Program-made: the position numbers and the translations under genes
Source of the DNA: Lachnospiraceae bacterium G41
Lineage (GTDB): Bacteria > Bacillota > Clostridia > Lachnospirales > Lachnospiraceae
Reading direction: 5' to 3'
Length of the DNA: 64,000 nt
Assembly (NCBI GenBank): GCA_900100245.1
Contig: FNEU01000001.1
Location: 186,001-250,000 of the forward strand
Part shown: piece by piece, positions 588-47,969 of the stretch
Numbering within the stretch: the stretch's first letter is position 1
Layout of the letters: every line of letters begins with the position of its first letter
The notes under the pieces: generated by a model
The model's database searches: none
What the model was told of the DNA's origin: nothing
The model's input: the letters and a program-made list of their open reading frames with translations, nothing else

Positions 588-833
588 TTGCAAAACTTAC
601 TTCCGCATTTAATCTTTTTGCAAGACTTACTTCAGATTATACTCTTCCCGAACGGAAATTAGTATTGCAAAAACTGGCCCAAATGGAAATAAGTTTTGCA
701 GTAACGGAAGTTAGTCTTGCAAACTGCTTGAAATAAGTGTTTATTACGTGGTAATCTTTTTATGAGGTCATATTTCTTTGCACGCAAATAAGAAGTCGAG
801 GCTTCGTTTACGTGTTTGCAAGAGAAACTTCCA
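588..833. repeat. Array of TTGCAAGACTTACTTC words in both orientations (left part, interrupted by IS30)
   Basis: Two forward copies of a degenerate 16-base word (TTGCAAGACTTACTTC) start near 589 and 619. Three reverse copies end near 668, 699 and 720, and a weaker forward copy is near 817. Neighbouring copies are 30, 31 and 21 bases apart. Further copies occur at 2254-2297, beyond the IS30 element, so the element appears to have jumped into the array. Together with 317-587, which is AT-rich and otherwise holds only the pilin promoter, this accounts for the gap after the pilin gene. Confidence 0.7.
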
Positions 834-854
834 CTTCATTTTCTGAAATATTTT

Positions 855-2235
855 TCAGGAGATGGCTATGTTTTATTTTTTATTTCATTAGTTCAGGTTT
901 GAGAATGATCTCATTTGCGGGAATAGCTTCCATTTTTAGTTTGTCAGCTATTTCATCGCCATACAGGAAGCTAAACAGTTGATATGCGGATCGATTGTTT
1001 AGCTTTTTCCTTGTATAAGAGTTTATGTGATTCATCATAAGCTGCACCTTATCCTGTGTAAGGTCCTTAAACGAAGTTCCTTTTGGAATAATGCGTCTTA
1101 TGAATTCATGTGTAACTTCTATCCCGCCTTTTTGATTTGATCTTTGAGGGTCACAATAAAAAACATAAGTCCTTCTGTTTCCTTCTTTATCGAATTCTAA
1201 TGAAGCAGGATCCGTAAACTCGCTCCCTCTATCCGTAAGTATCACTTGAAACATTTCGCAGAAACGCTCACGGCCAAGAAGATTATAAAGATTGTTAATG
1301 ATTTCAGTCACAGACCTGGCAGTATTGGCTTCTCTTAAGAAAGCAAGCATGCATGTACTGTTTCTAAAGAATAAAGTTAATAGCACTTTAGTCGAATCTC
1401 TCTTCCCTTCTACGGAATCCATTTCAACCACAGCATAATCCGGATGTTCTTCCATGAAAGCCAGAAAATCTTCATACGTTCTCCCTACATGACATTTTTT
1501 ATCAATACGTACGGTTTTCTTCTTTTTTCTTTTCCTGTGTCCAACTTTACGCGGAAGATCTAAATTTCCTATTGATAAAAGTCCTGCATCTATATAGTTA
1601 TATATTGTCCTTTCATCCACCATTATCAAATCTGCATTGTTTGAGCATATCTGATGAATCGACTGTCCTTGCTTTACCAAAGGAGATACCACTTCATCTA
1701 GTCTTTTTAATTCTTCCGGTGTAAGGTCTATGCCCTGTCTTGATTCGCTGCGTTTCTTTTCATATGCTTTCTGTGCTTCCTTGGCATCATACATTTTCTT
1801 TTCGAGAGTACATGATTTTATATGGCTGCACGAATTGCACACATAAGGCGCTTTTGCAAGTTTAACGCATTTATGCTCAACAAAGTCAGGACAGTTTTCA
1901 TTACAATCAGCACATAATGAACAGTAATTCTGATGGTGGCGGAGAAAATGGGTTACATGGCAATCTGCTCCGCAAATATACGTCTTGGTGCATTTCCTTC
2001 TGTGAGCGCATGGATTGAAACACATAGACCTTGTTCCTGTTTTTAGACTCAAAGAATGTCCTTTAACTTCTTTGGATATAGTTGTAGGATCTCGAGCAAT
2101 AAGAGTTGCTATCTCTAAAAATGTTTTGCCTTCTTTTAAAGCTTTTTGAATACTGATACGGTCATCAAGTGTCAGATGAGTAAATTTATAAGATGACATA
2201 CACTAACCTCCTTTCAATAAATAGCCATCTCCTGA
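855..2235. mobile_element. IS30-family insertion sequence, apparently complete
   Basis: A perfect 15-bp terminal inverted repeat, TCAGGAGATGGCTAT at 855-869 and its complement at 2221-2235, encloses one intact transposase gene. The element is about 1.38 kb. The ends may extend a few bases with mismatches. I cannot identify a clear short target duplication next to the repeats. The repeat ends about ten bases past the transposase stop, as is usual for compact IS30 elements. Confidence 0.85.
880..2199 (-). CDS. IS30-family transposase
   Basis: A 439-residue DDE transposase. The N-terminus (about 1-48) is a helix-turn-helix (LTLDDRISIQKALKEGKT, then a DPTTISKEVKG recognition helix) that binds the element ends. 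Residues about 58-135 hold many paired cysteines (CAHRRKC, CSLCADC, CNSCSHIKSC), a probable zinc-binding insert found in a long IS30 subgroup. The catalytic triad is visible as VVEMDSVEG, ILTDRGSEF and the Glu in IEVTHEFIRR. The start has an AAAGGAGG site upstream. Nothing is broken, so the element may still be active. Confidence 0.93.
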   Translation of the reverse strand: MSSYKFTHLTLDDRISIQKALKEGKTFLEIATLIARDPTTISKEVKGHSLSLKTGTRSMCFNPCAHRRKCTKTYICGADCHVTHFLRHHQNYCSLCADCNENCPDFVEHKCVKLAKAPYVCNSCSHIKSCTLEKKMYDAKEAQKAYEKKRSESRQGIDLTPEELKRLDEVVSPLVKQGQSIHQICSNNADLIMVDERTIYNYIDAGLLSIGNLDLPRKVGHRKRKKKKTVRIDKKCHVGRTYEDFLAFMEEHPDYAVVEMDSVEGKRDSTKVLLTLFFRNSTCMLAFLREANTARSVTEIINNLYNLLGRERFCEMFQVILTDRGSEFTDPASLEFDKEGNRRTYVFYCDPQRSNQKGGIEVTHEFIRRIIPKGTSFKDLTQDKVQLMMNHINSYTRKKLNNRSAYQLFSFLYGDEIADKLKMEAIPANEIILKPELMK

Positions 2236-2253
2236 CACTTTTTACTTCAATTC

Positions 2254-2305
2254 TTGCATAAAAAAAGAAGTCAGTCTCGTTTGCAAGACTAACTTCAGTA
2301 AGTTT
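2254..2305. repeat. Right part of the TTGCAAGACTAACTTC array
   Basis: A reverse word (GAAGTCAGTCTCG, 2268-2280) abuts a forward word (TTGCAAGACTAACTTC, 2281-2296). It is the same family as 588-833 on the other side of IS30. The following 2306-2437 is AT-rich with nothing I recognise. Confidence 0.6.
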
Positions 2306-2437
2306 TTAAATTATAGATTAGTTATAAATCATATAAAGAATAACTAGAAATAAAATTTTCAATTAAGGTTCAAAATAAAAAATAAAATAAAATATATTTA
2401 AAATATTCATATTTTATAACTTATATTAAAAAAAACA

Positions 2438-2460
2438 AAAACCGATTCGAAAATCGGTTT
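2438..2460 (-). terminator. Rho-independent terminator after pilC
   Basis: An 8-bp stem (AAACCGAT/ATCGGTTT) is followed on the minus strand by a long T-rich tract. It ends the pilB-pilC transcript before IS30 and the pilin gene. Confidence 0.8.
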
Positions 2461-2490
2461 TTGTACTATAACAAATATTATGATTATATA

Positions 2491-3702
2491 TCAGCCACCA
2501 AGTGCTTCGTACAAAGTAAACATCGGACTAAGAATTGCTAATACAAGAAAACCTACAATAAAAGCCATTGATATGATGATTAAGGGTTCCATCAAAGCCA
2601 TCATTGATTCTGTAGCATTTTGAACGTCTTCCTCATAATAAGAAGCAACATTTTCCAACATAGATTCAATATTACCCGTTTCTTCGCCAATGGAAACCAT
2701 ATGACAAACCATAGGTGGGAAAAGACCACTGGTTTTTAAGGGCCTAGATAATACTACACCTCTAGCAACTTGTTCTTTTGCTTCTTTCATTGCACGTTTA
2801 TAATTATTATTATCCATTGATTTTGCAGTAATATCAAGCGCATCTATCATAGGAACACCTGCGCCTAGAAGTGTACACAGTGTACGACCAAGTTTAGCGC
2901 ATGCTTTTTTCATCTGGATAGGACCCAAAACCGGAATTCTCAAAACCAATCTATCAATAATATCTTTACCTCCCGATGACGATTGGAAAGCTTTAAAAGC
3001 AATAAAGAGAAGGGCCGCAACTATCAATATCAACCACCAGAATTTAACAAAGAAATCAGAAATATGAACTATAACCATGGTAATAGCCGGCATCTCCGCA
3101 TCAAGTCCTTCGAACATTCCCATAAATGAAGGAATAACAAATGTCATCATGGCAAAGATAACACCAATTAAAACCAAAATAAGAACTATAGGATAGATAA
3201 CAGCTTTCTTAACAGCTGCTTCGAGCTGGGCATCTTTTTCAAACTGCGTAGCCATTCTGGAAAATGACTTATCAAGTGATCCGGATGCTTCACCTGCTTC
3301 TACCATATTGCAAAGCATACTGGGGAATACACCGCTTCTCTTTCTCATAGCTACAGCAAGTGGTTCTCCTTTAGAAATATCATTGTGAACTTCCTGAATA
3401 GCAAACTTTAATGCTTTGTTCTCAGTCTGTTCACCTAACATCTGAAAAGCTTCCACTATGGTAACACCAGCTTGAATAATAGACACAAACTGATGACAAA
3501 ACACAGAGAAGTCCCTAGATTTAACTTTTTTGCCAAAAGAAAAATTTACTTTTTTGGCAAGCCCACCTGCTTCAGTTATGTTGAGCACAGTATTCTTTTC
3601 ATTTTTGAGATTAGCAACAGCCATCTCTTTAGTCTTAGCTTCAATGTGACCTTTCTTCTTTTTACCGTCTGGTCCGACAGCAGTATAAACAAATTCAGCC
3701 AT
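2491..3702 (-). CDS. pilC: Type IV pilus inner-membrane platform protein (PilC/GspF family)
   Basis: A 403-residue polytopic protein that anchors the pilus assembly motor in the membrane. It begins MAEFVYTAVGPDGKKKKGHI, the short beta domain typical of the family. It has two repeated T2SSF domains (about 65-190 and 268-390), each starting with a region like FCHQFVSIIQAGV, and membrane helices near 170-190, 220-240 and 375-395. The length matches PilC. The start has AGGTGG upstream and lies 17 bases after pilB, so the two are co-transcribed. The partner ATPase is pilB. Whether the system makes a pilus, twitches or imports DNA cannot be told, because no retraction ATPase is in the window. Confidence 0.93.
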   Translation of the reverse strand: MAEFVYTAVGPDGKKKKGHIEAKTKEMAVANLKNEKNTVLNITEAGGLAKKVNFSFGKKVKSRDFSVFCHQFVSIIQAGVTIVEAFQMLGEQTENKALKFAIQEVHNDISKGEPLAVAMRKRSGVFPSMLCNMVEAGEASGSLDKSFSRMATQFEKDAQLEAAVKKAVIYPIVLILVLIGVIFAMMTFVIPSFMGMFEGLDAEMPAITMVIVHISDFFVKFWWLILIVAALLFIAFKAFQSSSGGKDIIDRLVLRIPVLGPIQMKKACAKLGRTLCTLLGAGVPMIDALDITAKSMDNNNYKRAMKEAKEQVARGVVLSRPLKTSGLFPPMVCHMVSIGEETGNIESMLENVASYYEEDVQNATESMMALMEPLIIISMAFIVGFLVLAILSPMFTLYEALGG

Positions 3703-3719
3703 AATTTCCCACCTTTACT

Positions 3720-5441
3720 TTATTTTTCTGAATCTTTTGTTTCTTCATCCATATCGTATGCTACACGTACCATTTCTTCAATAGAAGTAATGCCTTCTTT
3801 AACATTTCTGGCACCTGCCATACGAAGCGTATTCATGCCTTCTCTTACAGCTACTTCCTGAATTTCATCAGCGGTAACCTTCTGGTGAAGGATTCTTCTG
3901 ATACCGGAAGTGATAGGCATGATTTCATAAATAGCCTTTCGGCCTTTATAACCCTTGTTACATTCATCGCATCCACCTGGCTCATAGATTAACAGAGGCT
4001 GATCAACGGGTGCGCCCAGTAACTCTTTCTCTCTTTCAGTAGCTTCGTGAGGAATTTTGCACTTCGGACAGAGTCTTCTTACAAGACGCTGAGCAATGAT
4101 ACCAACTACAGCATCACCAATTAAGTAAGATTCAACACCCATATCGATAAGACGAGTTATTGAAGCGGATGTTGAGTTTGTATGCAGTGTAGAGATAACC
4201 AAGTGTCCGGTGATAGAAGCTTTAACGGCGATACCTGCAGTTTCACCGTCTCGAATCTCACCGATCATGATGATATCAGGGTCCTGACGAAGGATGGATC
4301 TAAGGGCTGAAGCGAATGTAAGTTCAGCCTTTACATTTACTTGTACCTGATTAACCCCTGGCACGTTTGCTTCGACAGGGTCTTCAACCGTGATAATGTT
4401 AACGGTTTCTTTGTTAAGTTCATGAAGTACAGTATAACATGTGGTAGATTTACCGGAACCTGTAGGTCCTGTTACGAGTATGATTCCGTGAGGGTTATGC
4501 GTGATAGCATCAAGCTTAGCTTCATCATCGGGATAAAGACCTAAGTGTTTCTTTTCTCTGGTAAGACCTCTCTTCTTCGTCATACGCATTACGGTTTTCT
4601 CACCGTAAACTGTAGGAAGGATTGAAACACGGACATCGTATTCTTCACCGTCCACAATTCTGGTAAGACGACCATCCTGAGGTTTTCTTTTCTCGGAGAT
4701 ATCAAGTCCGGAAACAATTTTAATACGGGCAACCATAGCTGCGAGTACGTTTCTGGGATATGTAAATACTTCCTGAAGTACACCGTCAATTCTGAATCGA
4801 ACCCTTACTCTATCTTCCATGGGCTCAATATGAATATCTGAAGAATCCATACGTACAGATTCGTCAAGAATGGTATTAACAATCTTTACGATAGGAGCAT
4901 CGTTTAACGCATCTTCATCTTCTTCTTCATCGAAACTTCCGAATTCGCCTGCGTGTTCTGCCTGGAACTGCTCTGCGGCTTCCATAGCCTGTCTCTTACC
5001 GTAAACCTTATCAATAAACATATTGACGGTCGTAGCCGATGCATACACAGGTGTAACTTCCATTCCGGTTACAATCTGAACGTCATCGATAGCACCGAGG
5101 TTCATCGGGTCGGCCATTGCGACCTTAAGTTTACTATAGTCGTTCTCATCATACCCTATAGGAATGAGAACATCCTTTCTCAGGATATCTTCGCCGATAG
5201 AGTCGAACAATTCCTGATCGGGTTTGAAGCCCTTTAGATCAATAGCTTCAATACCGAGCTGATCACAGATAACTCCGGCAAACTGTTCTTCGGTAACCAG
5301 TCCCATACTGATTAAGACTTCACCAAGTTTACCTTTTTGTTCTCTCTGCTGCTCCAGTGCCTGGCTCAGCTGATCGTCGGTAATATACCCCTTTTGTACC
5401 AGCAAATCGCCGATACGAATTCTGTTACCAAAAATTTTCAT
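3720..5441 (-). CDS. pilB: Type IV pilus assembly ATPase (PilB/GspE family)
   Basis: About 573 residues. The N-terminal MshEN-type domain (RIGDLLVQKGYITDDQL) occupies about 1-140; such domains can bind c-di-GMP in other species. The C-terminal motor has Walker A GPTGSGKSTT, an Asp box (ITVEDPVE), Walker B (DIIMIGEIRDGETA), a His box (STLHTNS) and a tetracysteine zinc motif (CPKCKIP with CDECNKGYKG). I chose the ATG at 5441 because an AGGGGTG site precedes it and the downstream residues begin the MshEN fold. A longer frame from a TTG at 5489 has no ribosome site. It powers polymerisation of the pilin through PilC. Confidence 0.94.
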   Translation of the reverse strand: MKIFGNRIRIGDLLVQKGYITDDQLSQALEQQREQKGKLGEVLISMGLVTEEQFAGVICDQLGIEAIDLKGFKPDQELFDSIGEDILRKDVLIPIGYDENDYSKLKVAMADPMNLGAIDDVQIVTGMEVTPVYASATTVNMFIDKVYGKRQAMEAAEQFQAEHAGEFGSFDEEEDEDALNDAPIVKIVNTILDESVRMDSSDIHIEPMEDRVRVRFRIDGVLQEVFTYPRNVLAAMVARIKIVSGLDISEKRKPQDGRLTRIVDGEEYDVRVSILPTVYGEKTVMRMTKKRGLTREKKHLGLYPDDEAKLDAITHNPHGIILVTGPTGSGKSTTCYTVLHELNKETVNIITVEDPVEANVPGVNQVQVNVKAELTFASALRSILRQDPDIIMIGEIRDGETAGIAVKASITGHLVISTLHTNSTSASITRLIDMGVESYLIGDAVVGIIAQRLVRRLCPKCKIPHEATEREKELLGAPVDQPLLIYEPGGCDECNKGYKGRKAIYEIMPITSGIRRILHQKVTADEIQEVAVREGMNTLRMAGARNVKEGITSIEEMVRVAYDMDEETKDSEK

Positions 5442-5574
5442 ACAAAAAACACCCCTGTTTATTTTTTGCGGTATATAAGTTTTAGACAAACTTACACACC
5501 TATGTATTATCGCATAATTGGGTGGAGAAATAAATACCTTTTTATTTTTTTTATAAATTGTTTATAGTTGTCTT

Positions 5575-5630
5575 GGGGACGGGGGTTGTGTGTCATTTTT
5601 TGACACTAGGGGACGGGGGTGTTGTGTCAT
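5575..5630. repeat. GGGGACGGGGG dispersed repeat, two direct copies
   Basis: Two copies beginning GGGGACGGGGGTTGTG (5575) and GGGGACGGGGGTGTTG (5609) flank a small TGTCA/TGACA palindrome. This word type recurs in many bacterial genomes as REP-like DNA. A second relative (GGGGACGGTTCT) lies at 11340-11398. Confidence 0.6.
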
Positions 5631-5656
5631 TCCTCTACTTCTTTGGCTCCGAAAGC

Positions 5657-5689
5657 AAAAGAACCGGGTGCTCACGCACCCGGTTCTTA
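5657..5689 (-). terminator. Terminator of hicAB
   Basis: A perfect 11-bp stem GAACCGGGTGC/GCACCCGGTTC with a four-base loop, followed on the minus strand by TTTT. It lies about 13 bases after the hicB stop. Confidence 0.8.
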
Positions 5690-5701
5690 TATTCTACTAT
5701 A

Positions 5702-6124
5702 TTATTGATGAAGCTTTTTTAATAACGCTTCCTGTAAAGTTTTAGAAAAATTTATTTTCGCTTTTCTGGCTTCCTTGTCTAGCCATGCAGGGATAGTTAA
5801 AGTTTTTCTGACAGATTTTTTGAAATGAGATTTTGAATACTCTTCTACTTCTACAGAAACTAAAGTTTTAAAAGCTTCTTTTATATTAACATCCTTATCT
5901 TTTAAAAATTCTTGAAGATTAATTTCTTGAAGATCCGAAGGTTTAGGTATTTCCTCTTCATCAATTGACGAAGTATACAAAAATCCTGCCAAGCAATCAA
6001 CCGCCATTTCCATTGCCTCAAATTCGTCCTTTCCCTCTGTAATCGCATATTTTAAATCGGGAAATATAACTGTATATCCACCAAGTTCATTTTTATAAAA
6101 AACTGCAGGATACATTGATAACAT
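5702..6124 (-). CDS. hicB: HicB-family antitoxin
   Basis: 140 residues. The N-terminal half (YPAVFYKNELGGYTVIFPDL) is the HicB partial-RNase-H-like fold that caps HicA. The C-terminal part (KTLTIPAWLDKEARK, then FSKTLQEALLKKL) looks like a ribbon-helix-helix or short HTH that binds the operon's own promoter. I start it at the ATG at 6124 because GGAGG lies eight bases upstream; a GTG at 6133 in the same frame overlaps the hicA stop and is less likely. The ribosome site of hicB is built from the last two Arg codons (AGG AGG) of hicA, so translation is coupled. Confidence 0.88.
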   Translation of the reverse strand: MLSMYPAVFYKNELGGYTVIFPDLKYAITEGKDEFEAMEMAVDCLAGFLYTSSIDEEEIPKPSDLQEINLQEFLKDKDVNIKEAFKTLVSVEVEEYSKSHFKKSVRKTLTIPAWLDKEARKAKINFSKTLQEALLKKLHQ

Positions 6125-6129
6125 AAGTG

Positions 6130-6327
6130 TCACCTCCTCTTTTTTATTCCAGCCATTTTGTATATCTGATCCTCTGTATCTTTCGACAAATCTTTACTAT
6201 GGAAAGGTATAGTTATCTTCCCTGGTTTATTAGGATGTACATATTGTCGATGAGAACCAACTTGATTTTTAAATCTCCAACCATCCTTTTTTATGATTCG
6301 TTCCATATCTTTTGGTCGTATTGGCAT
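6130..6327 (-). CDS. hicA: HicA-family mRNA interferase toxin
   Basis: 65 residues, the usual toxin size. The sequence MPIRPKDMERIIKKDGW and the GSHRQYVHP motif with its catalytic His match HicA, a double-stranded-RNA-binding-domain-fold RNase that cleaves mRNA when free of HicB. The order toxin then antitoxin is standard for hicAB. AAGGAGG precedes the start and a near-consensus promoter sits just upstream. Confidence 0.92.
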   Translation of the reverse strand: MPIRPKDMERIIKKDGWRFKNQVGSHRQYVHPNKPGKITIPFHSKDLSKDTEDQIYKMAGIKKRR

Positions 6328-6341
6328 TTATAACCTCCTTT

Positions 6342-6370
6342 ATTGTATAATTATTCGTATTGTTTGTCAA
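6342..6370 (-). promoter_or_regulatory. Sigma-A promoter of hicAB
   Basis: On the minus strand TTGACA (6365-6370), a 17-base spacer and TACAAT (6342-6347) lie just upstream of the hicA ribosome site. The CGTATT word is repeated in and around the spacer and could be a HicB operator, which is an inference. Confidence 0.7.
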
Positions 6371-6744
6371 CGTATTTGTATTATGCGCATTACATTTATA
6401 TGCATAAGAACTATTGTCTTATCTTTGATAATTAACTTGTACTTATAAACAATTAAAACGTGAAAACTAAACCGAATCATCCAAATCACAGATTTTTCAG
6501 GCGCCGGATTTAAGAGTCCCGCGCCCGCCCTTGCCAAGAGAATACTATTTTGTGAAACAAGAGAATGTGATTGAATAATCAAGAAATTATAAAATCAGGA
6601 TCAAATTATTAAATTATGTACATTTTATACAATATTCTTTGTTGTTTCAATATTTTTTTAGTGATTTTATACAATTGTTTCTTTACAATTGTGTAAATTA
6701 TTGATAGAATGAGGTAAAACAACTATATGTAGTATTTTGGGCAT

Positions 6745-6824
6745 AAAAAAAACAGCCATCCAATCCCTGCTAGATGTAAAACCTCCAGGATACGTCCGAA
6801 ACGTAATCAGATATCGCTGTTCTT
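6745..6824 (-). ncRNA. Candidate small structured RNA of about 80 nt
   Basis: On the minus strand a possible promoter (TTGAAA at 6853-6858, 16-base spacer, TATTCT at 6831-6836) precedes a compact foldable segment. An outer stem AACAGC/GCTGTT (6816-6821 with 6751-6756) encloses two hairpins: TACGT-TTCGG-ACGTA (6791-6805) and TCCTG/CAGG(G)A (6764-6790). The outer stem is followed by eight T residues, so it doubles as a terminator. I do not match it to a known RNA family. The remainder of the 6371-6963 gap is AT-rich, apart from a GC-rich patch near 6500-6540 that I cannot assign. Confidence 0.4.
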
Positions 6825-6963
6825 AATTTAAGAATAACATAATTTATGATTTTTTCAAGATAAAAATATACCTTTATACTAAATTGCAATTCTTCACTTT
6901 TACCCTCAATCATGCTATATTTATTACATATTAAAAGCATAAAACTAAAACTTAGGAGGGATT

Positions 6964-9255: not shown

Positions 9256-9266
9256 AGAAAACTTAA

Positions 9267-9310
9267 GAGGGAGCCAGGCACGCTAACGCGAGCCAGGCTC
9301 CCTCTTTTTT
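9267..9310 (+). terminator. Terminator of the GH3 gene, built from the GTGCCAGGC repeat family
   Basis: A 9-bp stem GAGGGAGCC/GGCTCCCTC encloses a nested AGGCACGC/GCGAGCCA region and is followed by TTTTTT. A second related palindrome (GGTGCCTGGCTCCC, 9311-9343) follows at once. Confidence 0.8.
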
Positions 9311-9349
9311 GGTGCCTGGCTCCCGAAGGGAGCCTGGCTCCGTCCTTTA

Positions 9350-15122: not shown

Positions 15123-15150
15123 TGGTGCCAGGCACGCTTCGCGAGCCGAG
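15123..15150. repeat. GTGCCAGGC-family repeat abutting the 52-bp array
   Basis: GGTGCCAGGCACGCTTCGCG followed by AGCCGAG lies between the purB start and the first degenerate unit of the array. The inner GCGCGAAGCG-like stem is imperfect. Confidence 0.55.
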
Positions 15151-15600
15151 CAGCTTTAATTCAAAACTCATTTTGTACTGCTTGATTTATCTTTTCTCGC
15201 TTTAGGCAGTACTATAAGTGGCTTATGTACTGCCTACTTTTGACTTTTTTCTTTTAGGCAGTATTTTTATCGGCTTTTGTACTGCCTTATTTCTCTTTTC
15301 TCGCTTTAGGCAGTACTATAAGTGGCTTTTGTACTGCCTACTTTTGACTATTTTCTTTTAGGCAGTATTTTTATCTGCTTTTGTAATGCTTAATTTTTCT
15401 TTTCACGCTTTAGGCAGTACTATAAGTGGCTTTTGTACTGCTTAATTTTTCTTTTCTCGCTTTAGGCAGTACTATAGATGATTTTTGTACTGCTTACTTT
15501 TGATTTTTTTCTTTTAGGCAGTATTTTTATCGGCTTTTGTACTGCCTGATATCATTTTTTCTCATCCAAGCAATACTTTAAAAAAGATAATAACAATATT
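15151..15600. repeat. Inverted-arm array with an exact 52-bp period
   Basis: Arms TAGGCAGTAC and GTACTGCCTA face each other 22 bp apart. The left arms start at 15203, 15255, 15307, 15359, 15411, 15463 and 15515, always 52 bp apart. Degenerate units fall on the same lattice at 15151 and 15567. Two unit types alternate: ACTATAAGTGG and ATTTTTATCGG between the arms. 52 is not a multiple of three and both strands are full of stops, so the array is non-coding. It occupies the spacer between purB and the TPR gene. Confidence 0.9.
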
Positions 15601-21463: not shown

Positions 21464-21600
21464 CAAACATTATGCTTGCCAAATCAATCTTTTATGATTT
21501 AAAACTTATCGATGCCAAACATTATGCTTGCAAAACATACTTTAAAATTTTTTATGATTTAAAACTTATAGTTGTCAAACATTATGTTTGCAAATCAAAG
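21464..21600. repeat. Three-copy repeat with a CAAACATTATGTTTG palindrome
   Basis: CAAACATTATG(C/T)TTG starts at 21464, 21516 and 21576, so the steps are 52 and 60 bp. The third copy is a perfect palindrome around one T; the first two have one change each. TTTTATGATTTAAAACTTA is shared between copies. It fills the spacer between the giant gene and mrp. Confidence 0.65.
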
Positions 21601-21621
21601 TTTTATATTATTTGATTAAAT

Positions 21622-22490: not shown

Positions 22491-22575
22491 TTGTTAGAAG
22501 ATACGCTCTTGCTTTTGTTGTAAGAGGCTCTATTGCTCTTGTTGGAAGAAGCGCTCTTGCCTTTGTTGGAAGGCT
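22491..22575. repeat. 24-bp tandem repeat in the mrp leader
   Basis: TTGTT starts at 22491, 22515, 22539 and 22563. The 24-base unit is about TTGTTGGAAGAAGCGCTCTT plus GCCT, three and a half copies with point changes. I see no ORF across it on either strand that looks real. 22576-22700 is AT-rich without further structure. Confidence 0.75.
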
Positions 22576-22700: not shown

Positions 22701-23427
22701 TTACGGGTGTATTTGTGATTTCTGCATTTCACCCGTAATTTTTTCTATTCAATCAGCCAAATTTACGGGTGTATTGTGTTTTCTTTCATTTCACCCGTAA
22801 TTTTTCTCTTGTGTTTAACTGAATTTACGGGTGTATTTGCGCTTTCTTCTGTTTCACCCGTAATTTTTCTCTTGTGTTTAGCTGAATTTACGAGTGTATT
22901 TGCACTTTCTTCTGTTTCACCCGTAGTTTTTTCTATTCAATCAGCCAAATTTACGGGTGTATTGTGTTTTCTTTCATTTCACCCGTAAATTTCATCTTAT
23001 CGCCTCTCAAAACTACGTGTGTTTTTTAACCTTCTTGCTTTTCACACGTAATTTCTTGCTTTCATTCAGCCAATACTACGTGTGTTTCTTATCTTTCTTG
23101 CATTTCACCCGTAAATTTCATCTTATCGCCTTTCAAAACTACGGGTGTTTTTAACCTTCTTGCTTTTAACACGTAATTTCTTGCTTTCATTCATCCAATA
23201 CTACGTGTGTTTCTTATCTTTCTTGCATTTCACACGTAATATTTCTCTTATGTCTTAATAAAACTACGTGTGTTTCTCAACTTTCTTTCATTTCACACGT
23301 AATTATTCTCTCATGTTTAGCCAAAACTACGCGTGTTTTTCAACTTACTTTCATTCCACACGTAAATTCTCTCTTATGTTCATCTAAACTACGGGACTAA
23401 TCAAGTTTTCTTGTTTTTAGCCCGTAA
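22701..23427. repeat. Twelve-unit inverted-arm array with a 62.5-bp period
   Basis: Left arms (TACGGGTG or TACGTGTG) start at 22702, 22764, 22826, 22889, 22952, 23014, 23077, 23140, 23202, 23265, 23328 and 23390: steps of 62 or 63. Each has an opposed arm (CACCCGTA or CACACGTA) 28-29 bp further. Units 1-5 use GGG/CCC and most later units GTG/CAC; the last unit changes both arms. A two-unit block (about 125 bp) is duplicated within 22980-23230. Short plus-strand ORFs here only reflect the repeat. The array fills the 1-kb gap between mrp and the ABC exporter. Confidence 0.92.
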
Positions 23428-29831: not shown

Positions 29832-30088
29832 GGCTAACAAAATAGCATATTCAGGCTTTTTAGTAGCCATTTGCACTGATATATCAATTATTAATACTAC
29901 TTCCGGCTAACAAAATCTCTTTTTTAATCAATTTAGTAGCCAAAAGCTTTATTTTTCTCATGAAAATTTGATTTTCGGCTAACAAAATAGCATTTTTAGG
30001 CTTTTTAGTAGCCAAAAGACCTTAATTTCTACTTAAAAACTATAAAATTGGCTAACAAAATTTCATTTTAATACATTTTGTTAGCTAA
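29832..30088. repeat. Four-unit inverted-arm array with a 72.7-bp period
   Basis: GGCTAACAAAAT starts at 29832, 29905, 29977 and 30050 (steps 73, 72, 73). An opposed arm, TTTAGTAGCC, follows at a constant 29 bp in units 1-3; in unit 4 the arm is TTGTTAGCTA. The sequence between arms is only partly conserved. The array lies between argS and queH, upstream of argS on its strand. Confidence 0.88.
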
Positions 30089-30110
30089 TGCCATATTACA
30101 TTGAAATAAT

Positions 30111-30150
30111 TCTTATTAATTCTTATTAATTCTTATTAATTCTTATTAAT
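30111..30150. repeat. Four copies of TCTTATTAAT
   Basis: An exact 10-bp tandem repeat follows the array directly. The rest to 30207 is AT-rich with TTAATTAA-like sequence and no gene. Confidence 0.85.
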
Positions 30151-30207
30151 TGTTCAAATATTATTTTGCTAATTTTATTAATTTAATTAACCATTTAATT
30201 AATTTTC

Positions 30208-37356: not shown

Positions 37357-37361
37357 CATAA

Positions 37362-39280: not shown

Positions 39281-39313
39281 ATTTGCCTTCTTTTATGAGC
39301 CCTAAAAAAATGA

Positions 39314-39337: not shown

Positions 39338-39343
39338 AATTTC

Positions 39344-39745: not shown

Positions 39746-39763
39746 ATCCGTCCCCCAAATTAT

Positions 39764-40543: not shown

Positions 40544-40611
40544 AGAATATAGTCCCCCTCATATTTTGTATGCTAACATTCCATCTTTTGTCATTTTACT
40601 ACACTTTTTTG

Positions 40612-40640
40612 TTGATTTCAATTGTTTGAAGTGTTATCAT
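40612..40640 (+). promoter_or_regulatory. Promoter of pyrBI
   Basis: TTGATT (40612-40617), 17 bases, TATCAT (40635-40640), then GGAGAA and the pyrB ATG. The leader is only about 23 bases, too short for an attenuator. Confidence 0.6.
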
Positions 40641-40670
40641 AGGAAAAATGATTTTTATAGGAGAACGTAT

Positions 40671-41594: not shown

Positions 41595-41624
41595 AACAAA
41601 CAATTTTCACGAAAGGAAAACGTT

Positions 41625-42053
41625 ATGCTGAAGATTGGAAGAATTCATGAAGGTTTCGTGCTTGACCATATAAAAGCAGGTAAAAGCTTGTCAATTTATC
41701 ATCATTTGCAGCTTGATAAAAAAGACTGTACCGTTGCAATGATTATGAATGCCAAAAGTGAAAAAATGGGTAAGAAAGATATCCTTAAAGTAGAATGTGA
41801 CATCGAAGAAATGGATATGGACGTGCTTGCGGTAATCGATCACAACATCACAGTAAACGTCATAAAAGACGGAGAAATCGTTGCGAAGAAAGAGCTCACA
41901 CTTCCCAAAGAAATCAGAAATATCTACAAATGCAAGAACCCTCGTTGCATAAGCAGTATCGAACAGGAACTTCCTCAGATTTTCGTACTTGACGAAAAAA
42001 AGGAAATCTACAGATGCAAATACTGTGAAGAGAAAACAAGACAGGAATTATAA
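41625..42053 (+). CDS. pyrI: Aspartate carbamoyltransferase regulatory chain
   Basis: 142 residues. The N-terminal nucleotide-binding domain has KIGRIHEGFVLDHIKAGK and the C-terminal zinc domain has CKNPRC and CKYC. It binds ATP or CTP and controls PyrB. AAAGGAAAA precedes the ATG. It is the last gene of the pyrBI unit and ends at a strong terminator. Confidence 0.95.
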   Translation: MLKIGRIHEGFVLDHIKAGKSLSIYHHLQLDKKDCTVAMIMNAKSEKMGKKDILKVECDIEEMDMDVLAVIDHNITVNVIKDGEIVAKKELTLPKEIRNIYKCKNPRCISSIEQELPQIFVLDEKKEIYRCKYCEEKTRQEL

Positions 42054-42059
42054 TTTAAA

Positions 42060-42083
42060 AGCCGAAGGAAAAATCCTTCGGCT
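42060..42083. terminator. Bidirectional terminator between pyrI and the CobW-like gene
   Basis: Stem AGCCGAAGGA/TCCTTCGGCT, with T-rich sequence on both sides; the genes are convergent. Confidence 0.85.
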
Positions 42084-42089
42084 AATTTT

Positions 42090-43022
42090 TTATACTAAAT
42101 TGATAACTTCTTCTCTGGGAGCCTTGGCAGGTGTAATCTCCTTTGCATAAAGCACAGGACCTTCACCGTTATAATCTTTCCAGAACTCTATCTTAATTTC
42201 AGCAGTAACTGTTATCCAGTCGCCTTTTTTATACTTGTCAGCTTCATCTGTTTTACAAATAAATCCAAGAAAAGCAATATCTTCTGCACAGCATGTCATT
42301 GCAGAACGTCCGGGAACAAGAAGGCCTTTGCCAAGTGTCTCGGGTTTTACGACGTTGGCTAAAAACTTAACTGTTTTGCCGTTGTATCTGTCAAAATTGT
42401 CGAGACAGTCAAAGAACCATATACCGTAAGTCTCATCGACAAGTTCGATTACGGGAGCATTTACGTCAAAAGGTAGTTCCTCATCAAGTGTTGTATTAAT
42501 CTCTCCGTTCTTGTCTTCGAATACGATTTCGGCATTTCTGTTTAATGCCATTACGTTTCTTTTATATGTAGGAAGTTCCTTGTTTAAACCGTCACATCTG
42601 TTAAAGATGATAAGTTCCGATTTTTTGACCATATCGGAAATAAGCGAACGCATATTGGCGAAATACATGTTAAATGTGGCTGCATTGATAATTGTTACCT
42701 GCTGTGCCAGTTTCCAGTGCCATGGCATCTTTAAATCCGACATCTGCCACATTCCGTTGTACTCGATGATGATTCTCTCGGGTTTGTGTTTTTTCTCAAG
42801 ATTAAGAAGCGTAGTGCTGTTTAAATCTTCTTTGTTATCAATAACTTCGATTACCGTATGCGTTTTACGAAGAATCTCTTCTTCTATCTCAACCTCGCCC
42901 TCTTCGCACATGATAAGAAGAGTTGTGTTAGTTGTCAGAAAATACGGCTGTGTTATAGTAAATCTGATAAATTCAGTCTTTCCTGCTTCCAGAAATCCGT
43001 TTATAACAAATACGTTTTTCAT
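42090..43022 (-). CDS. CobW-like GTPase with a DUF1980-like C-terminus
   Basis: 310 residues. The N-terminal P-loop (FVINGFLEAGKTEFIRF) and the switch/base region (IIFNRCDGLNKEL) are those of a G3E/CobW GTPase, but the CxCC metal motif of that family is missing. Residues about 220-300 (GKTVKFLANVVKPETLGKG, then SAMTCCAEDIAFLGFICK) resemble the DUF1980/TIGR03943 domain, which has a conserved CC. It follows the next CobW gene by one base, so the pair is coupled. A role in metal handling is inference. Confidence 0.75.
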   Translation of the reverse strand: MKNVFVINGFLEAGKTEFIRFTITQPYFLTTNTTLLIMCEEGEVEIEEEILRKTHTVIEVIDNKEDLNSTTLLNLEKKHKPERIIIEYNGMWQMSDLKMPWHWKLAQQVTIINAATFNMYFANMRSLISDMVKKSELIIFNRCDGLNKELPTYKRNVMALNRNAEIVFEDKNGEINTTLDEELPFDVNAPVIELVDETYGIWFFDCLDNFDRYNGKTVKFLANVVKPETLGKGLLVPGRSAMTCCAEDIAFLGFICKTDEADKYKKGDWITVTAEIKIEFWKDYNGEGPVLYAKEITPAKAPREEVINLV

Positions 43023-43023
43023 A

Positions 43024-44136
43024 TTAGAATAATTCCTTAATCTTATCTTCGTTTAATTTAGAGCCGATAACAACGACTTTACCTGTAACCTCAGGACTGC
43101 CGGCTCTGACATTTCTCTCTTCGGGAACATAGTCAAAGTAAATGAATCCGCCGTCCTTGTCGTAAACCATACCCTTTGAACGAAGTATTATGCCATAAGT
43201 TTCATTGTCGTCAAATTTGGACAATATATCGTTAATCTGTTCTTTTGTATATGATTTTGCAGTCTCAAATCCGATGCTTGCAAATACTTCATCAGCATGA
43301 TGGTGATGATGGTGATGTTCGTGGTCGTGATGATGGTGACATTCACATTCGGGATCGTCGCATTCTTCATCATCGTCGTGGTGATGATGGTGATGATGCT
43401 CGTGTTCATCGTCATCGTCATCGTCGTCGTGATGATGGTGATGGCACTCACAATCGGGATCGTCACACTCTTCGCCGTGGCTGTGAGCCATTTCTTTTTT
43501 CATCTCTTCAAGAAGTTCCTCTTCAAGGCTCTTTCCTGCTTCGTATGTCTTAAGAATCTGCTCGCCTGTTAACTGATCCCAGGGAGTAGTAATAATCGTA
43601 GCCTTAGCATTATGCTCACGAAGAAGTGCAATTGCCTCATTTAACTTTTCTTCGGAAACATTCTGTGTTCTTGAAAGAATAATTGTGCCTGCTGCTTCAA
43701 CCTGATTGATGAAGAATTCACCGAAGTTCTTGATGTACATTTTACACTTTGAAACGTCTACAACGACTACTGCTGCGTTTAAAGCAACATCTGTTAAATT
43801 CTCCTTAGTCTCAAGATCTGCAACAGCCTTAATAACGTCTGAAAGCTTACCTACGCCTGAAGGCTCGATGAGAATTCTCTCGGGAGAATATGTCTTGATT
43901 ACTTCTTTTAAGGATGCTCCAAAGTCACCTACGAGTGAACAGCAGATACATCCTGAATTCATTTCTTTTATCTCTATTCCGGCTTCTTTTAAGAATCCGC
44001 CGTCAATTCCGATTTCACCAAATTCATTCTCGATGAGAACAACTTTTTCTTTATTCAGCACTTCTTTTAACATCTTCTGAATAAATGTAGTCTTGCCTGC
44101 TCCGAGGAAACCGGAAACTATATCAATCTTAGTCAT
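43024..44136 (-). CDS. CobW/ZNG1-type metallochaperone GTPase with a His-rich insert
   Basis: 370 residues. The P-loop is VSGFLGAGKTT, the metal motif CxCC lies in EMNSGCICCSLVGDFG, and ILIEPSGVG is the switch. Residues about 215-280 are a long His/Asp stretch with two CDDP-(D/E)-CEC segments that can bind many Zn2+ or Ni2+ ions. The C-terminal CobW_C domain follows. Such proteins deliver zinc to client enzymes. The ATG at 44136 has GAAGG upstream; a longer frame to 44187 lacks a site. No Zur box is obvious. Confidence 0.9.
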   Translation of the reverse strand: MTKIDIVSGFLGAGKTTFIQKMLKEVLNKEKVVLIENEFGEIGIDGGFLKEAGIEIKEMNSGCICCSLVGDFGASLKEVIKTYSPERILIEPSGVGKLSDVIKAVADLETKENLTDVALNAAVVVVDVSKCKMYIKNFGEFFINQVEAAGTIILSRTQNVSEEKLNEAIALLREHNAKATIITTPWDQLTGEQILKTYEAGKSLEEELLEEMKKEMAHSHGEECDDPDCECHHHHHDDDDDDDEHEHHHHHHHDDDEECDDPECECHHHHDHEHHHHHHHADEVFASIGFETAKSYTKEQINDILSKFDDNETYGIILRSKGMVYDKDGGFIYFDYVPEERNVRAGSPEVTGKVVVIGSKLNEDKIKELF

Positions 44137-44234
44137 GACTTTACCTTCTTTCTTTTCGTAAACTATATATTTACTTTTATTATCCAAATATTTATTATAT
44201 CATACACGTCAAGTTTAACCTTCTTATAAATACT

Positions 44235-44262
44235 AAAAAAGGACCGCATCAGCGATCCTTTT
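44235..44262 (-). terminator. Terminator of infC-rpmI-rplT
   Basis: Stem AAAAGGA(T)CGC/GCG(G)TCCTTTT followed on the minus strand by T residues, 18 bases after the rplT stop. Confidence 0.75.
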
Positions 44263-44280
44263 AATATTCAACAAGTCTAA

Positions 44281-44637
44281 TTAAGCGATTTTGCTCTTTG
44301 CGATTTCAGATAAGCTCTTGAAACCTTCTGCATCGTTAACTGCCATCTCTGCGAGCATCTTTCTGTTGATGTCGATGTTAGCAAGTTTAAGACCATACAT
44401 AAATTTGCTGTATGAAAGTCCGTTCATTCTTGCAGCAGCGTTGATACGTGCAATCCAAAGTCTCCTGAACTGTCTCTTGTTTTCCTTACGTCCGGCATAA
44501 GAAGAAGCAAGCGCTCTCATAACGGACTGTTTAGCTATACGATACTGTTTTGATCTTGCTCCTCTGTATCCTTTAGCAAGCTTTAAAACTCTGTTATGTT
44601 TTTTCTTGGCATTTAAGCCACCTTTTATTCTAGCCAT
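44281..44637 (-). CDS. rplT: Ribosomal protein L20
   Basis: 118 residues, basic, with MARIKGGLNAKKKHNRVLKL and the conserved ARINAAARMNGLSYSKFMYG segment. It is an early large-subunit assembly protein and, in other Firmicutes, binds the operon leader to repress it. It is last in the operon. Confidence 0.97.
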   Translation of the reverse strand: MARIKGGLNAKKKHNRVLKLAKGYRGARSKQYRIAKQSVMRALASSYAGRKENKRQFRRLWIARINAAARMNGLSYSKFMYGLKLANIDINRKMLAEMAVNDAEGFKSLSEIAKSKIA

Positions 44638-44657
44638 TTTTTACTTCCTCTCTTTCC

Positions 44658-44855
44658 TTAAATGTAAGGTAAAATCTTCTTCATATTCTTTACATTTGTG
44701 CAATCTGTAACTGCAGCCTGTCTAAGATTTCTTTTTCTCTTTGTAGACTTCTTTGTAAGGATATGGCTCTTATAAGCTTTAGATCTTTTTAATTTTCCTG
44801 TTCCTGTTAATTTAAAACGCTTTGCAGCAGACCTGGATGTCTTCATTTTAGGCAT
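44658..44855 (-). CDS. rpmI: Ribosomal protein L35
   Basis: 65 residues, very basic ([20 protein letters not shown], then [20 protein letters not shown]). The order infC-rpmI-rplT is standard. Confidence 0.97.
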
Positions 44856-44892
44856 AACTAATGTCCTCCTTAAGTAAAATATATTTTAACTG

Positions 44893-45408
44893 TTACTTCT
44901 TCTCAGCCAAAACCATAGCTATCGAACGACCTTCAATCTTCGCTTCTTTTTCAAGAGTAGAAACATCTGAAAGTCCGTTTGCAAAATCTTCAAGAAGTTT
45001 CTTCGCGGTAGGAACTCCGTGAGCCATTTCTCTACCTCTGAATCTTACGGTTACTTTAACCTTTTCACCTTTTGTAAGGAACTTTCTTGCTGCATTCATC
45101 TTTGTATTGAAATCGTTGGTATCAATATTGGGCGAGAAACGGATTTCCTTAACTTCGGTAACTTTCTGTTTCTTCTTGTTCTCTTTTTCTTTACGAAGCT
45201 GCTCGTACTTGAATTTTCCGAAGTCTTCAATACGACATACGGGCGGATTGGCATTCGGGGAAATCATGATTAAATCAAGTCCCAAATCTTCTGCTCTCTG
45301 CAGTGCATTGCCTGTGGGCATAACACCGAGCATTTCTCCTTCCTCTGAAATAACTCTCACTTCACTGTCTCTGATCTGATCGTTAATAATATAGTCGTTG
45401 TTCTTCAT
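44893..45408 (-). CDS. infC: Translation initiation factor IF-3
   Basis: About 171 residues. The N-domain starts near YIINDQIRDSEVRV, the lysine-rich linker is KEKENKKKQKVTEVKE and the C-domain holds KVKVTVRFRGREMAHG. IF-3 blocks subunit joining and checks the start codon. The ATG at 45408 follows GGAGG after only three bases, a tight spacing; a longer frame to 45459 would overlap the leader terminator and is unlikely. infC starts are often non-canonical, so an AUU start at IINDQ is conceivable. Confidence 0.95.
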   Translation of the reverse strand: MKNNDYIINDQIRDSEVRVISEEGEMLGVMPTGNALQRAEDLGLDLIMISPNANPPVCRIEDFGKFKYEQLRKEKENKKKQKVTEVKEIRFSPNIDTNDFNTKMNAARKFLTKGEKVKVTVRFRGREMAHGVPTAKKLLEDFANGLSDVSTLEKEAKIEGRSIAMVLAEKK

Positions 45409-45430
45409 ATTCCTCCGTACATAAGTTTCG

Positions 45431-45560
45431 AAAAAAAATTGAGTGGACACAATATCCACTCAATAATATAAAAAAGCTCTTTGCTAACTTTCAAATATTA
45501 ACGCCGAAAACGCAATTGTCGTCGGGTGAGAGCGGATACTCTGCTTTGTTTTGCAACATT
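45431..45560 (-). promoter_or_regulatory. infC operon leader with attenuator (probable L20-type leader)
   Basis: The leader contains GCAGAGTATCCGCTCTCACC (about 45527-45546), a conserved-looking hairpin that I associate with clostridial infC leaders. It ends in a terminator, TTGAGTGGA/TCCACTCAA (45439-45463) with eight T, only about 20 bases before the infC ribosome site. The layout fits transcription attenuation by excess L20 or IF-3. Confidence 0.65.
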
Positions 45561-45563
45561 AGT

Positions 45564-45592
45564 ATTTTATACTGTTAATTCCTATAAGTCAA
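45564..45592 (-). promoter_or_regulatory. Promoter of infC-rpmI-rplT
   Basis: On the minus strand TTGACT (45587-45592), 17 bases, TAAAAT (45564-45569), just before the leader. Confidence 0.7.
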
Positions 45593-45603
45593 GAAAAATT
45601 TTT

Positions 45604-46107
45604 TTAAGCGTTCTTGCCACAGCACTTCTTATATTTCTTGCCTGATCCGCAAGGGCAGGGATCGTTAGGATAAACTTTAGCATCTTTTACGATGGTTGTA
45701 GAAGCCTTCTGCTCTTTGTAAAGTGCCTTCTTTTCATCCTCTGTGAAATACTCGTTCCACTCTTCGAGGTTGTAAAGCCAGTCTGCACCTGCTGCAACCA
45801 TGTTCTTGTAAAGAAGTTCCTTGTCGTATTCAAGGCTAATCTCCGTATCCTCATCCATATCCTCGATAGGGTTGGGAGTAACCAAAGAATCATTGATACC
45901 GTCAAGAATACCTGTCATATAAAAGGTATCAACACCGTATTTCTCGCAAAGTTCTTTTACGGTACCTTTTACGGGCTCTTTTTCGGGAAGAAGCTTCTTA
46001 TAGAATTCCTTCTCAAGTGTAAAATATTTGTTCCAGATAGGCTGCAAAGTTGACTTGTCAGCTGTCTCGTCATATGCTTTTGCGCGCCAAGTGTCTAATA
46101 ATTTCAT
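45604..46107 (-). CDS. SEC-C motif protein
   Basis: 167 residues. The C-terminus [16 protein letters not shown] is the SEC-C zinc motif, shared with SecA tails. The N-terminal 140 residues are helical and acidic ([20 protein letters not shown]). This is a free-standing SEC-C protein; a role near the ribosome or SecB-like clients is possible but not shown. It has no operon partner because the infC promoter follows directly. Confidence 0.8.
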
Positions 46108-46280
46108 ATTTAATCCATCCTTTATATGTATTATTTTTATTTTTCAAGCCGTTAAATAGTATAAAACAAAATGGCCAAAAATGAAAGTTTTAATAAGCAA
46201 ACGAATAAAAAATATGGTAATCGCCAATAAAACAATGTATATTATAAAAGAAAAATGATTTAAAAAACTTAGGAGAAAAT

Positions 46281-46604
46281 ATGCTAAAAAGAATTTTTGC
46301 TGTCATCGGTTTAATAGTAATCCTCGGATGGATAATCGCCACTCTTGCTCTGGCAGTTTTCCCCATCCCCATGAAAACGGTTTTATTTCCCATATTCGCA
46401 GCCGGCTGCGTAATACTTCCTATTCTGCTGTGGCTTCTTTTATGGATGATAAGCGTAGTTACAGGAAAGAAAAACATCGCTACATTTGAAGTAAATAACG
46501 ATAAAGACGAGGAAACTCTCTCTAAGGCAACGAAAGATGATGTCGATGCAGCTGTGAACGAAGCATCCGTTGATGAAGCCAATGAAATTCCTGAAGAAAA
46601 GTAA
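46281..46604 (+). CDS. Small membrane protein of unknown function
   Basis: 107 residues with two membrane helices (about 5-26 and 34-60) joined by a short loop, then an acidic cytosolic or external tail (NDKDEETLSKATKDDVDAAV). An AGGAGAAA site precedes the ATG. It is the only plus-strand gene in this region and is followed by its own terminator. I do not recognise a family. The opposite strand carries an overlapping open frame that looks like a shadow. Confidence 0.6.
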   Translation: MLKRIFAVIGLIVILGWIIATLALAVFPIPMKTVLFPIFAAGCVILPILLWLLLWMISVVTGKKNIATFEVNNDKDEETLSKATKDDVDAAVNEASVDEANEIPEEK

Positions 46605-46617
46605 GTAACTTTTAGGC

Positions 46618-46650
46618 AAAAAGAGCGCAATTAAAGCGTTCTTTTTTTAT
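46618..46650 (+). terminator. Terminator of the small membrane protein gene
   Basis: An imperfect stem AAGAGCGC/GCGTTCTT followed by TTTTT. Confidence 0.65.
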
Positions 46651-46663
46651 TTGAATTAAAAAC

Positions 46664-46952
46664 TACGTGCGAATATAGGTATTTTTTCTAAACGCATGTG
46701 TATTCTTGCATGCAATGTCTTAAAACTACAAGCATAAACTTGTTATTCTCCAATACGCACGTATAGTCTCGTCGAAAAAACACAAATACTACGCGCTTAA
46801 ATTCATTGTCTTAAAAAAAGCGCGTAGAATAATTAGATAAAAGTCTAAAAGATACGCGCATATATGTATAGATTATAAAATCGCACGTAAAGACTTGAAA
46901 TAGAAATTCATAAAATACGTGCTAATAAATTACATCATAAAAAAAGCATGTA
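46664..46952. repeat. Five-unit inverted-arm array with an exact 63-bp period
   Basis: Left arms TACGTGC, TACAAGC, TACGCGC, TACGCGC and TACGTGC start at 46664, 46727, 46790, 46853 and 46916: always 63 bp. The opposed arms GCATGTG, GCACGTA, GCGCGTA, GCACGTA and GCATGTA start at 46694, 46757, 46820, 46883 and 46946: always 30 bp after the left arm. The sequence between arms is hardly conserved. It lies between convergent transcripts. Confidence 0.9.
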
Positions 46953-46978
46953 AATAATGAAAATCAACATAAAAAAAA

Positions 46979-47010
46979 CGTCGACTGCAAGTTCTTTTGC
47001 AATCGGCGCT
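46979..47010. terminator. Bidirectional terminator before the Nif3-like gene
   Basis: CGACTGCAA and TTGCAATCG pair with one G-U (46982-47005), with an A run on the left and T8 on the right. Confidence 0.75.
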
Positions 47011-47039
47011 TGTTTTTTTTACATAATACTTCTATGAAA

Positions 47040-47840
47040 TCACATATACTCTCCGACTTCTTTCTGAATCGAAGGAATGATTGTAATGTCAGGGAAGTTC
47101 ATTTCAAAGAATGCTCTGACTAAATCAACAAATATGATTTCTGTGCCGTAATGTCCGGCATCTATGATATTAAGTCCCCTTGATACGGCATCCAATGCTG
47201 CATGATATGTCATATCTCCTGTGATTAAAAGATCGCAGTTTTCTTTTATGCACTCATCTATCATGGATTTTCCTGCGCCCGTGCATACAGCAACACGACT
47301 GATAATACTGTCAAGGTCACCATAAACTTTAACAACATTTAAACCAAAGCCTTTCTTGGTTCTGATCACAGCTTCGTGTAACATTATGTCAACCGCTTCT
47401 TTGTTGTCATTGAGGAATTTGCCGATACTTCCCATTCCTATCTTTTCATTATCTTGATTTATGTTAACCTCTATTGCTCGTTCTCTTTTAATACCGAGAA
47501 CTTCATCAGCCACTTCGGAAAGTCCCGTCGCATCCATATTGGTATGCATTGCAATATAGTTAATCTTATTGTTTGCAAGCTTAATTATTCTTGCAGTAAT
47601 AAAATCTTCTGAATTTATCTTCATTACAGGTGCGAAAATCAAAGGATGATGAGAAATAATCAAATCCGCCTTTGCTGCAATTGCCTGCTCAACCACTTCG
47701 TCAGTAACATCAAGCGTCACTATGATACGATTAACTTCCGAATTCATATCTCCTATGAGAAGGCCCGAGTTATCCCACTCTTCCTGTAATTCGAATGGTG
47801 CTATTTTATTTAAGTTTTCATATATTTCTTTTACTTGCAT
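47040..47840 (-). CDS. Nif3-like dinuclear metal centre protein (YqfO type)
   Basis: 266 residues. LQEEWDNSGLLIGD, the metal-binding ADLIISHHPLIF and AMHTNMDAT, the late DLLITGDMTYHAAL and a final His in DAGHYGTE are the family motifs. Members form a toroid hexamer; some act as GTP cyclohydrolase IB-like enzymes in other bacteria, but the role of the short type is not settled. In many Firmicutes this gene follows trmK in the rpoD operon; here the SulP gene and a 35-bp repeat lie between. Confidence 0.92.
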   Translation of the reverse strand: MQVKEIYENLNKIAPFELQEEWDNSGLLIGDMNSEVNRIIVTLDVTDEVVEQAIAAKADLIISHHPLIFAPVMKINSEDFITARIIKLANNKINYIAMHTNMDATGLSEVADEVLGIKRERAIEVNINQDNEKIGMGSIGKFLNDNKEAVDIMLHEAVIRTKKGFGLNVVKVYGDLDSIISRVAVCTGAGKSMIDECIKENCDLLITGDMTYHAALDAVSRGLNIIDAGHYGTEIIFVDLVRAFFEMNFPDITIIPSIQKEVGEYM

Positions 47841-47881
47841 ATATTCTCCTTGAGCTTATGATTCTTACCTTTTAAAAAATT

Positions 47882-47969
47882 CGCTATTAATTTTGAACTC
47901 ATGCTTTTTTTGAATCCGCTATTTATTTTGAACTTACTGTTTTTTAAAATCCGACCATCTGTTTTGACC
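47882..47969. repeat. Three-copy direct repeat with a 35-bp period
   Basis: CGCTATTAATTTTGAACT (47882), CGCTATTTATTTTGAACTT (47917) and CGACCATCTGTTTTGACC (47952) are 35 bp apart. There are no opposed arms. It lies between the Nif3-like gene and the SulP terminator. Confidence 0.7.

Follow-up and report, generated by a model that had tools for sequence, protein, structure and literature searches.

The window analysed here, a 64-kb stretch (G000:C17:186001-250000) of a 2.59-Mb genome, contains tandem arrays of a spaced palindrome, the TACG family, whose arm letters and internal distances are kept while the remaining sequence drifts. The reading that we lean towards is that the TACG arrays are BIME-like interspersed tandem spaced palindromes, with the arms as half-sites for a putative recogniser of fixed reach. 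It is based on the retention of the TACG.G letters in 374–399 of 400 arms and on the 37 + 26 bp lengths, which hold to about one base as loop and linker drift, together with the presence of both empty and filled orthologous sites, a two-unit difference between loci L250 and L258, and the restriction to one genus. In such a system, the half-sites would be recognised by a single sequence-specific factor, either a protein acting on the duplex or an enzyme acting on the folded hairpin. This factor would tolerate almost any sequence between the arms and demand a fixed distance between them, and the arrays would grow and shrink through recombination or slippage between units.

Tandem arrays of spaced palindromes in the window

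Repeat scans bore out the periods originally noted for four arrays in the window, which are 52 bp at A2, 62–63 bp at A3, 63 bp at A5 and 72–73 bp at A4 (Table 1). These had been described as four unrelated arrays with one layout and completely different arm sequences. The layout, a spaced palindrome and a constant linker in tandem, stands, but the four arrays represent three families, because A3 and A5 share TACGNGY...RCNCGTA arms. Their kinship is evident from a joint alignment and from one model, built partly from A3 and A5 units, that matches both. A2 and A4 are families separate from TACG, of like layout. The region had been taken to begin at position 588; arms do occur at this site, but as a looser direct and inverted set. 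The direct repeats named as misfits were also recovered, at 22491 (24 bp), 21464 (52/60 bp) and 47869 (35 bp).

Table 1. Repeat features of the window (positions within the window)
Feature	Position	Strand	Organisation	Site
A1	587..723	.	TTGCAARACTTACTTC-type arms, direct and inverted; spacings 30, 31, 21; not a regular array	
A2	15205..15546	.	7 units, 30-bp hairpin GGCAGTA...TACTGCC and 22-bp linker; 6/6 spacings exactly 52	Upstream of adenylosuccinate-lyase-type gene (Pfam of neighbour)
Direct repeat	21464..21606	.	60/30 bp with indels; hairpin filter failed	3' of mrp
Direct repeat, 24 bp	22491..22572	.		Between A3 promoter region and mrp
A3	22702..23426	.	12 TACG-family units, 37- or 36-bp spaced palindrome and 25–26-bp linker; spacings 62 or 63	Between ABC transporter gene 3' end and mrp
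A4	29832..30086	.	4 units, GGCTA...TAGCC-type arms, 37-bp hairpin; spacings 73, 72, 73	Between queH and argS (Pfam of neighbours)
A5	46664..46952	.	5 diverged TACG-family units; 4/4 spacings 63	nif3 upstream of array
Direct repeat, 35 bp	47869..47971	.	Hairpin filter failed	Upstream of nif3

The TACG unit consists of TACGNGY, 23 bp and RCNCGTA, giving 37 bp (sometimes 36), followed by a 26-bp linker, which corresponds to a period of 63 bp. In the alignment underlying the model (49 units, drawn from ten loci in five genomes, after four near-identical L084 units were left out of 53 candidates), T, A, C, a G and their mirror letters are invariant or nearly so. A two-unit pattern comprising the 37-bp palindrome, the 26-bp linker and the next arm is found 17 times in the window, with matches on both strands, and never in 100 dinucleotide shuffles. 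The exact form of this pattern occurs 83 times in the G000 genome (41 and 42 by strand) and is absent from 397 other genomes of the phylum; a reversed control pattern yielded no match in G000 and one in another genome. An Rfam 15 scan of the window returned three tRNAs as the only matches above the gathering score, and no similarity of A3 to plasmids was found. The Mrp protein encoded in the window is 99% identical to that of the uncultured Lachnospiraceae genome bin RUG11047.

Constant geometry and drifting sequence

A unit scan yielded 49 chains with 216 units from eight genomes, with L259 excluded because it repeats L189. The hairpin measures 37 bp in 174 and 36 bp in 28 of the 216 units, and the linker 26 bp in 141 and 27 bp in 11 of 167 cases. 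The resulting spacing is 63 bp in 121 instances, 62 bp in 24 and 64 bp in 11. Removal of seven chains (six two-unit chains with off spacing and the L257 duplicate) left 42 chains with 200 units.

Mean linker identity within an array can be as high as 1.00 or as low as the 0.34 background between arrays, with the spacing kept. The most diverged arrays include L123 (identity 0.32; spacings 63, 63, 63) and L266 (0.33; 62, 64, 63, 63); L268 stands at 0.36 and A5 at 0.45. Spacing thus outlives sequence divergence, in line with the original prediction, as 62–64 bp is maintained in L123 and L266 with linkers at background identity. Of 115 pairs of neighbouring units, 82 are of equal length, 27 show a one-base difference and 6 a larger one. 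Per substitution, aligned gaps number 0.055 in the class of greatest divergence and 0.12 in each of the remaining two, against 0.286 in ordinary intergenic DNA, a small control of 25 pairwise comparisons at four genes whose value is inflated by end gaps of fixed windows. Since spacing is kept at background-level linker identity and length changes are rarer than in the control, the geometry, and with it unit length, looks constrained. The constant length may in part be a legacy of a recent common unit, to which a weak consensus in the loop and linker ends of the unit points. As a clostridial family in which arm letters and inter-site distances hold while the rest drifts, the TACG arrays offer a natural experiment on what fixes spacing.

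Turnover between species and distribution

Close species differ in which sites carry arrays, and array size varies in steps of whole units. At the mrp site, an array is found in G000, in G023 and, as far as the contig end, in G006, and G013 has three units with other arms. The transporter stop in G003 runs straight into the mrp promoter region with no array, and G007, G008 and G009 also have none at this site. The nif3 site carries TACG arrays in G000, G006 and G023 and one unit in G003; no TACG array was seen in the stretch examined in G020 and G044. Orthologous spacers had been proposed as a check, and the three nif3 arrays indeed hold 62–63 bp with changed loops and linkers. The A2 array at purB has 7 units in G000, 4 in G003 and 11 in G013, with 19 of 19 spacings exactly 52 bp, and is absent from the purB site of G006. 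The G013 version contains higher-order copies in which three unit types follow in turn. A4 was seen in the window only, among the loci scanned, and the argS sites of G003, G013, G020 and G023 lack it. L250 and L258 have the first and the last two units in common and differ by two whole middle units, as judged by eye. The 24-bp direct repeat at 22491..22572 is present in G023 and absent from G006. The same four-unit array of period 62 lies at L252 3260-3481 and L257 2457-2678, each close to a contig end (C11 and C8), perhaps within a duplicated region.

The genus sample comprised 31 searchable genomes, G000 included. Scoring 150 candidates per genome on both strands (E up to 0.1) gave at least 128 TACG model matches in G000, five or more matches in at least nine of the 31 genomes and one or more in at least 14; these counts are neither complete nor strand-free because of that scoring. 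Under stricter filters, a scan of 146 genomes from 93 genera of the order matched the model in G000 alone and in none of the other 145. The family is therefore genus-restricted in the sampled genomes. Among named relatives, 79 loci totalling 1.27 Mb yielded intergenic repeat rows in L014 and L080 and, in L079, a CRISPR array. A viral origin was rejected, as the one exact pattern match in viral_contigs sits in GC-rich coding DNA without a model match.

Genomic context and transcription termination

The folding of the units raises the alternative of tandem transcription terminators, in which each unit would form an RNA hairpin at gene 3' ends and the arrays would insulate neighbouring genes. The predicted hairpins average -11.3 kcal/mol (z -3.8; 200 units, both strands, mononucleotide shuffles), close to the -13 kcal/mol of an ordinary terminator in the window. 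The placement of the 42 chains agrees with such a role, as 24 of the 32 classifiable ones lie in codirectional and 6 in convergent gaps, with 10 more at stretch edges. However, ordinary gaps are likewise mostly codirectional (198 of 257, with 21 convergent and 38 divergent), and two of the 32 arrays occupy divergent gaps. The loop of about 21 nt and, in the unit profile, the weakness of the T run that follows the stem also argue against termination, which would have no need for a fixed 26-bp linker. Accordingly, we regard a terminator function as unlikely.

Outside the window, 17 distinct proteins adjoin G000 arrays, and ten of these were scanned. The ten include EF-Tu, a histidine kinase, a phage integrase, an acyltransferase, an M48 peptidase and metabolic enzymes, with no common partner gene among these ten. 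None is listed as Cas, either among them or among ten neighbours in the window. Of the nine array-bearing genus genomes, six contain the Y1 transposase domain (PF01797), as do 11 of the 22 others. G000 has partial matches only, and the domain was not found in the array-bearing G003, G006 and G010 (89, 96 and 80% complete). IS200/RAYT was rejected as a universal partner, since Y1 transposase genes show no association with the arrays in these genomes. With some array-bearing genomes showing no such transposase, the arrays themselves could serve as ready bait for the putative recogniser.

Arm letters and pairing

Across the 400 arms of the 42 arrays, T is conserved in 395, A in 399, C in 397, G in 374 and the second G in 395. 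The original prediction envisaged a partner that co-evolves with each locus; the TACG.G letters are instead common to all arrays, and position N alone is array-specific (C in 185, G in 129, T in 71 and A in 15 of 400 arms). Agreement at N is 0.72 with the hairpin mate, 0.71 with the linker mate, 0.62 with non-adjacent arms of the same array and 0.34 with other arrays. Among 47 distinct units, 92.2% of cells are paired compared with 82.6% after shuffling, a count that does not separate relatedness from structure. When composition within each array is considered, pairing in 16 diverged arrays is 46 at N versus 43.2 expected (p 0.2) and 23 at the eighth position versus 24.3. In 21 conserved arrays, pairing exceeds the within-array expectation at both positions (93 versus 86.5 and 67 versus 52.5), which would fit a structural or a mutational cause. 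Compensatory pairing was thus set aside as the main conserved feature, being weak in diverged arrays after array composition and present in conserved ones. An RNA tied to one strand was also rejected, as the purine-rich loop is found in both orientations.

These patterns bear on a purely mutational origin, in which slippage would duplicate one unit and template switching would match imperfect arms, with no function involved. Such an origin would account for the array-wise sameness of N, the higher-order copies in A2 of G013, the whole-unit differences between species and the excess matching of mates in conserved arrays. It sits poorly with the TACG.G letters, which persist where linkers are saturated and which template switching alone would not hold identical across sites, and with lengths kept better than in control DNA. 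We consider this origin still less probable than a terminator function.

Periods and helical turns

The original prediction proposed that the periods of unrelated families are quantised in helical turns and that one face of the DNA is read. The three families it named (52, 63 and 72.7 bp) lie near 5, 6 and 7 turns, with p 0.0005 if a turn is taken as 10.4 bp and 0.004 if it is taken as 10.5 bp, although they were chosen post hoc. Eight hand-picked array types, two-copy ones included, gave p 0.07 and 0.08, respectively. A later filter, fixed before the last sample (TRF, at least 2.5 copies, period of at least 30, less than half coding, a hairpin in the consensus), was applied to 141 partly overlapping loci (2.24 Mb). 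It left out A5, two-copy arrays and L379, a 52-bp array that fits the prediction. A second 37-bp array, at L278 3179-3367, was excluded because it passes only under a looser ORF mask. Eight families passed, with periods of 63, 52, 72.7, 53 (L340), 40.5 (L343), 35 (L364), 37 (L276) and 91 (L278) bp. Together they gave p 0.07 (10.4 bp) and 0.13 (10.5 bp), and the five outside the original choice (53, 40.5, 35, 37 and 91) gave 0.49 and 0.61. Addition of the filter-failing L379 to make nine families yielded p 0.03–0.06. Quantisation as a rule is not supported so far.

Within the TACG family, the linker behind a 36-bp hairpin is 26 bp long in 17 cases, 25 bp in one and 27 bp in none. Without an extra linker base to make up for the missing one, the period stays short and phase is not kept; mean periods per array range from 62.0 to 63.8 bp. 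A-rich dinucleotides in the unit show a 10.5-bp component, as a one-face reading would have it, but a 15.8-bp component is nearly equal in strength. Quantised periods read on one face are improbable. A more specific version, equally improbable, would have the arms of the genus act chromosome-wide as half-sites for an oligomeric DNA-binding protein, with arm centres alternately 29 and 34 bp apart and six turns per unit, and proteins of the same kind stacked on one face in several independent families at 5, 6 and 7 turns. As part of the BIME-like reading, we somewhat favour the period as the geometry of each family rather than the outcome of a general whole-turn rule.

One of the additional families, at L340 1085-1436 in G019, has seven units with a 33-bp hairpin CCTACT...AGTAGG and a 20-bp linker, at period 53. 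Its loop is A-rich like those of other families, and G019 has no TACG matches.

Relation to known repeats

Discussions of clustered bacterial palindromes, most of them concerning Proteobacteria, usually centre on a transposase, on gyrase binding or on roles as RNA. The arrays of this gut bacterium look like an undescribed cousin of these clusters. REP and BIME elements are described in PMC2817692 and PMC3733652 as short extragenic palindromes, clustered with regular spacing, mostly in unidirectional or convergent gaps, and strongly variable among relatives. The TACG repeats are likewise short, palindromic and high-copy, in regularly spaced clusters, with the classified arrays between ORFs. In contrast, REP hairpins carry an unpaired GTAG or CGTC tag at one end, according to PMC3733652, whereas the TACG/CGTA arm ends pair and leave no such tag; GTAG is confined to some units, where it belongs to a partly paired CGTAG at the 3' end. 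The TACG arrays were not filed as members of the GTAG/CGTC repeats because this tag is missing. They further differ in having arms about 21 bp apart and units in direct tandem with a constant linker, and in lacking a consistent tyrosine transposase. The words Clostridi- and Firmicutes do not occur in PMC3733652, and searches of open-access literature brought up no paper on such arrays in this bacterial group.

The alternation of a partly palindromic repeat of about 37 bp with a spacer of about 26 bp resembles CRISPR. However, TACG repeats diverge within an array, linkers are related in many arrays, and the arrays occupy dozens of sites. Plasmid centromere-like iteron arrays such as sopC consist of tandem units, each with an inverted repeat read by a protein, at one locus per plasmid. 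TACG arrays share the tandem units holding inverted repeats but differ in lying at many chromosomal loci.

Other repeats near the arrays

A protein with an HTH_38 domain (window 880-2199), which we take to be of IS30 type, directly adjoins the loose arm cluster at 587-723. A perfect 10-bp tandem repeat, TAATTCTTAT, adjoins A4 at 30107-30151. A palindrome of the GAGCCAGGCAC / GTGCCTGGCTC type is repeated at window 9265-9337 and about 15130-15155 and also occurs at L119 7784 and L304 4238; 10-mers with its letters are some of the most frequent in intergenic DNA. Over 864 kb of G000, TCTTTTATGA exceeds expectation, with 181 copies on both strands against 44 expected (order-5 Markov), and TCTTTTAGGA (93 versus 21 expected) and TCTTTTACGA (70 versus 21 expected) are over-represented as well; part of the coding copies may reflect codon usage. 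Forty-four of the 181 TCTTTTATGA copies are intergenic, in about 62 kb, including those at window 23444 and 21488.
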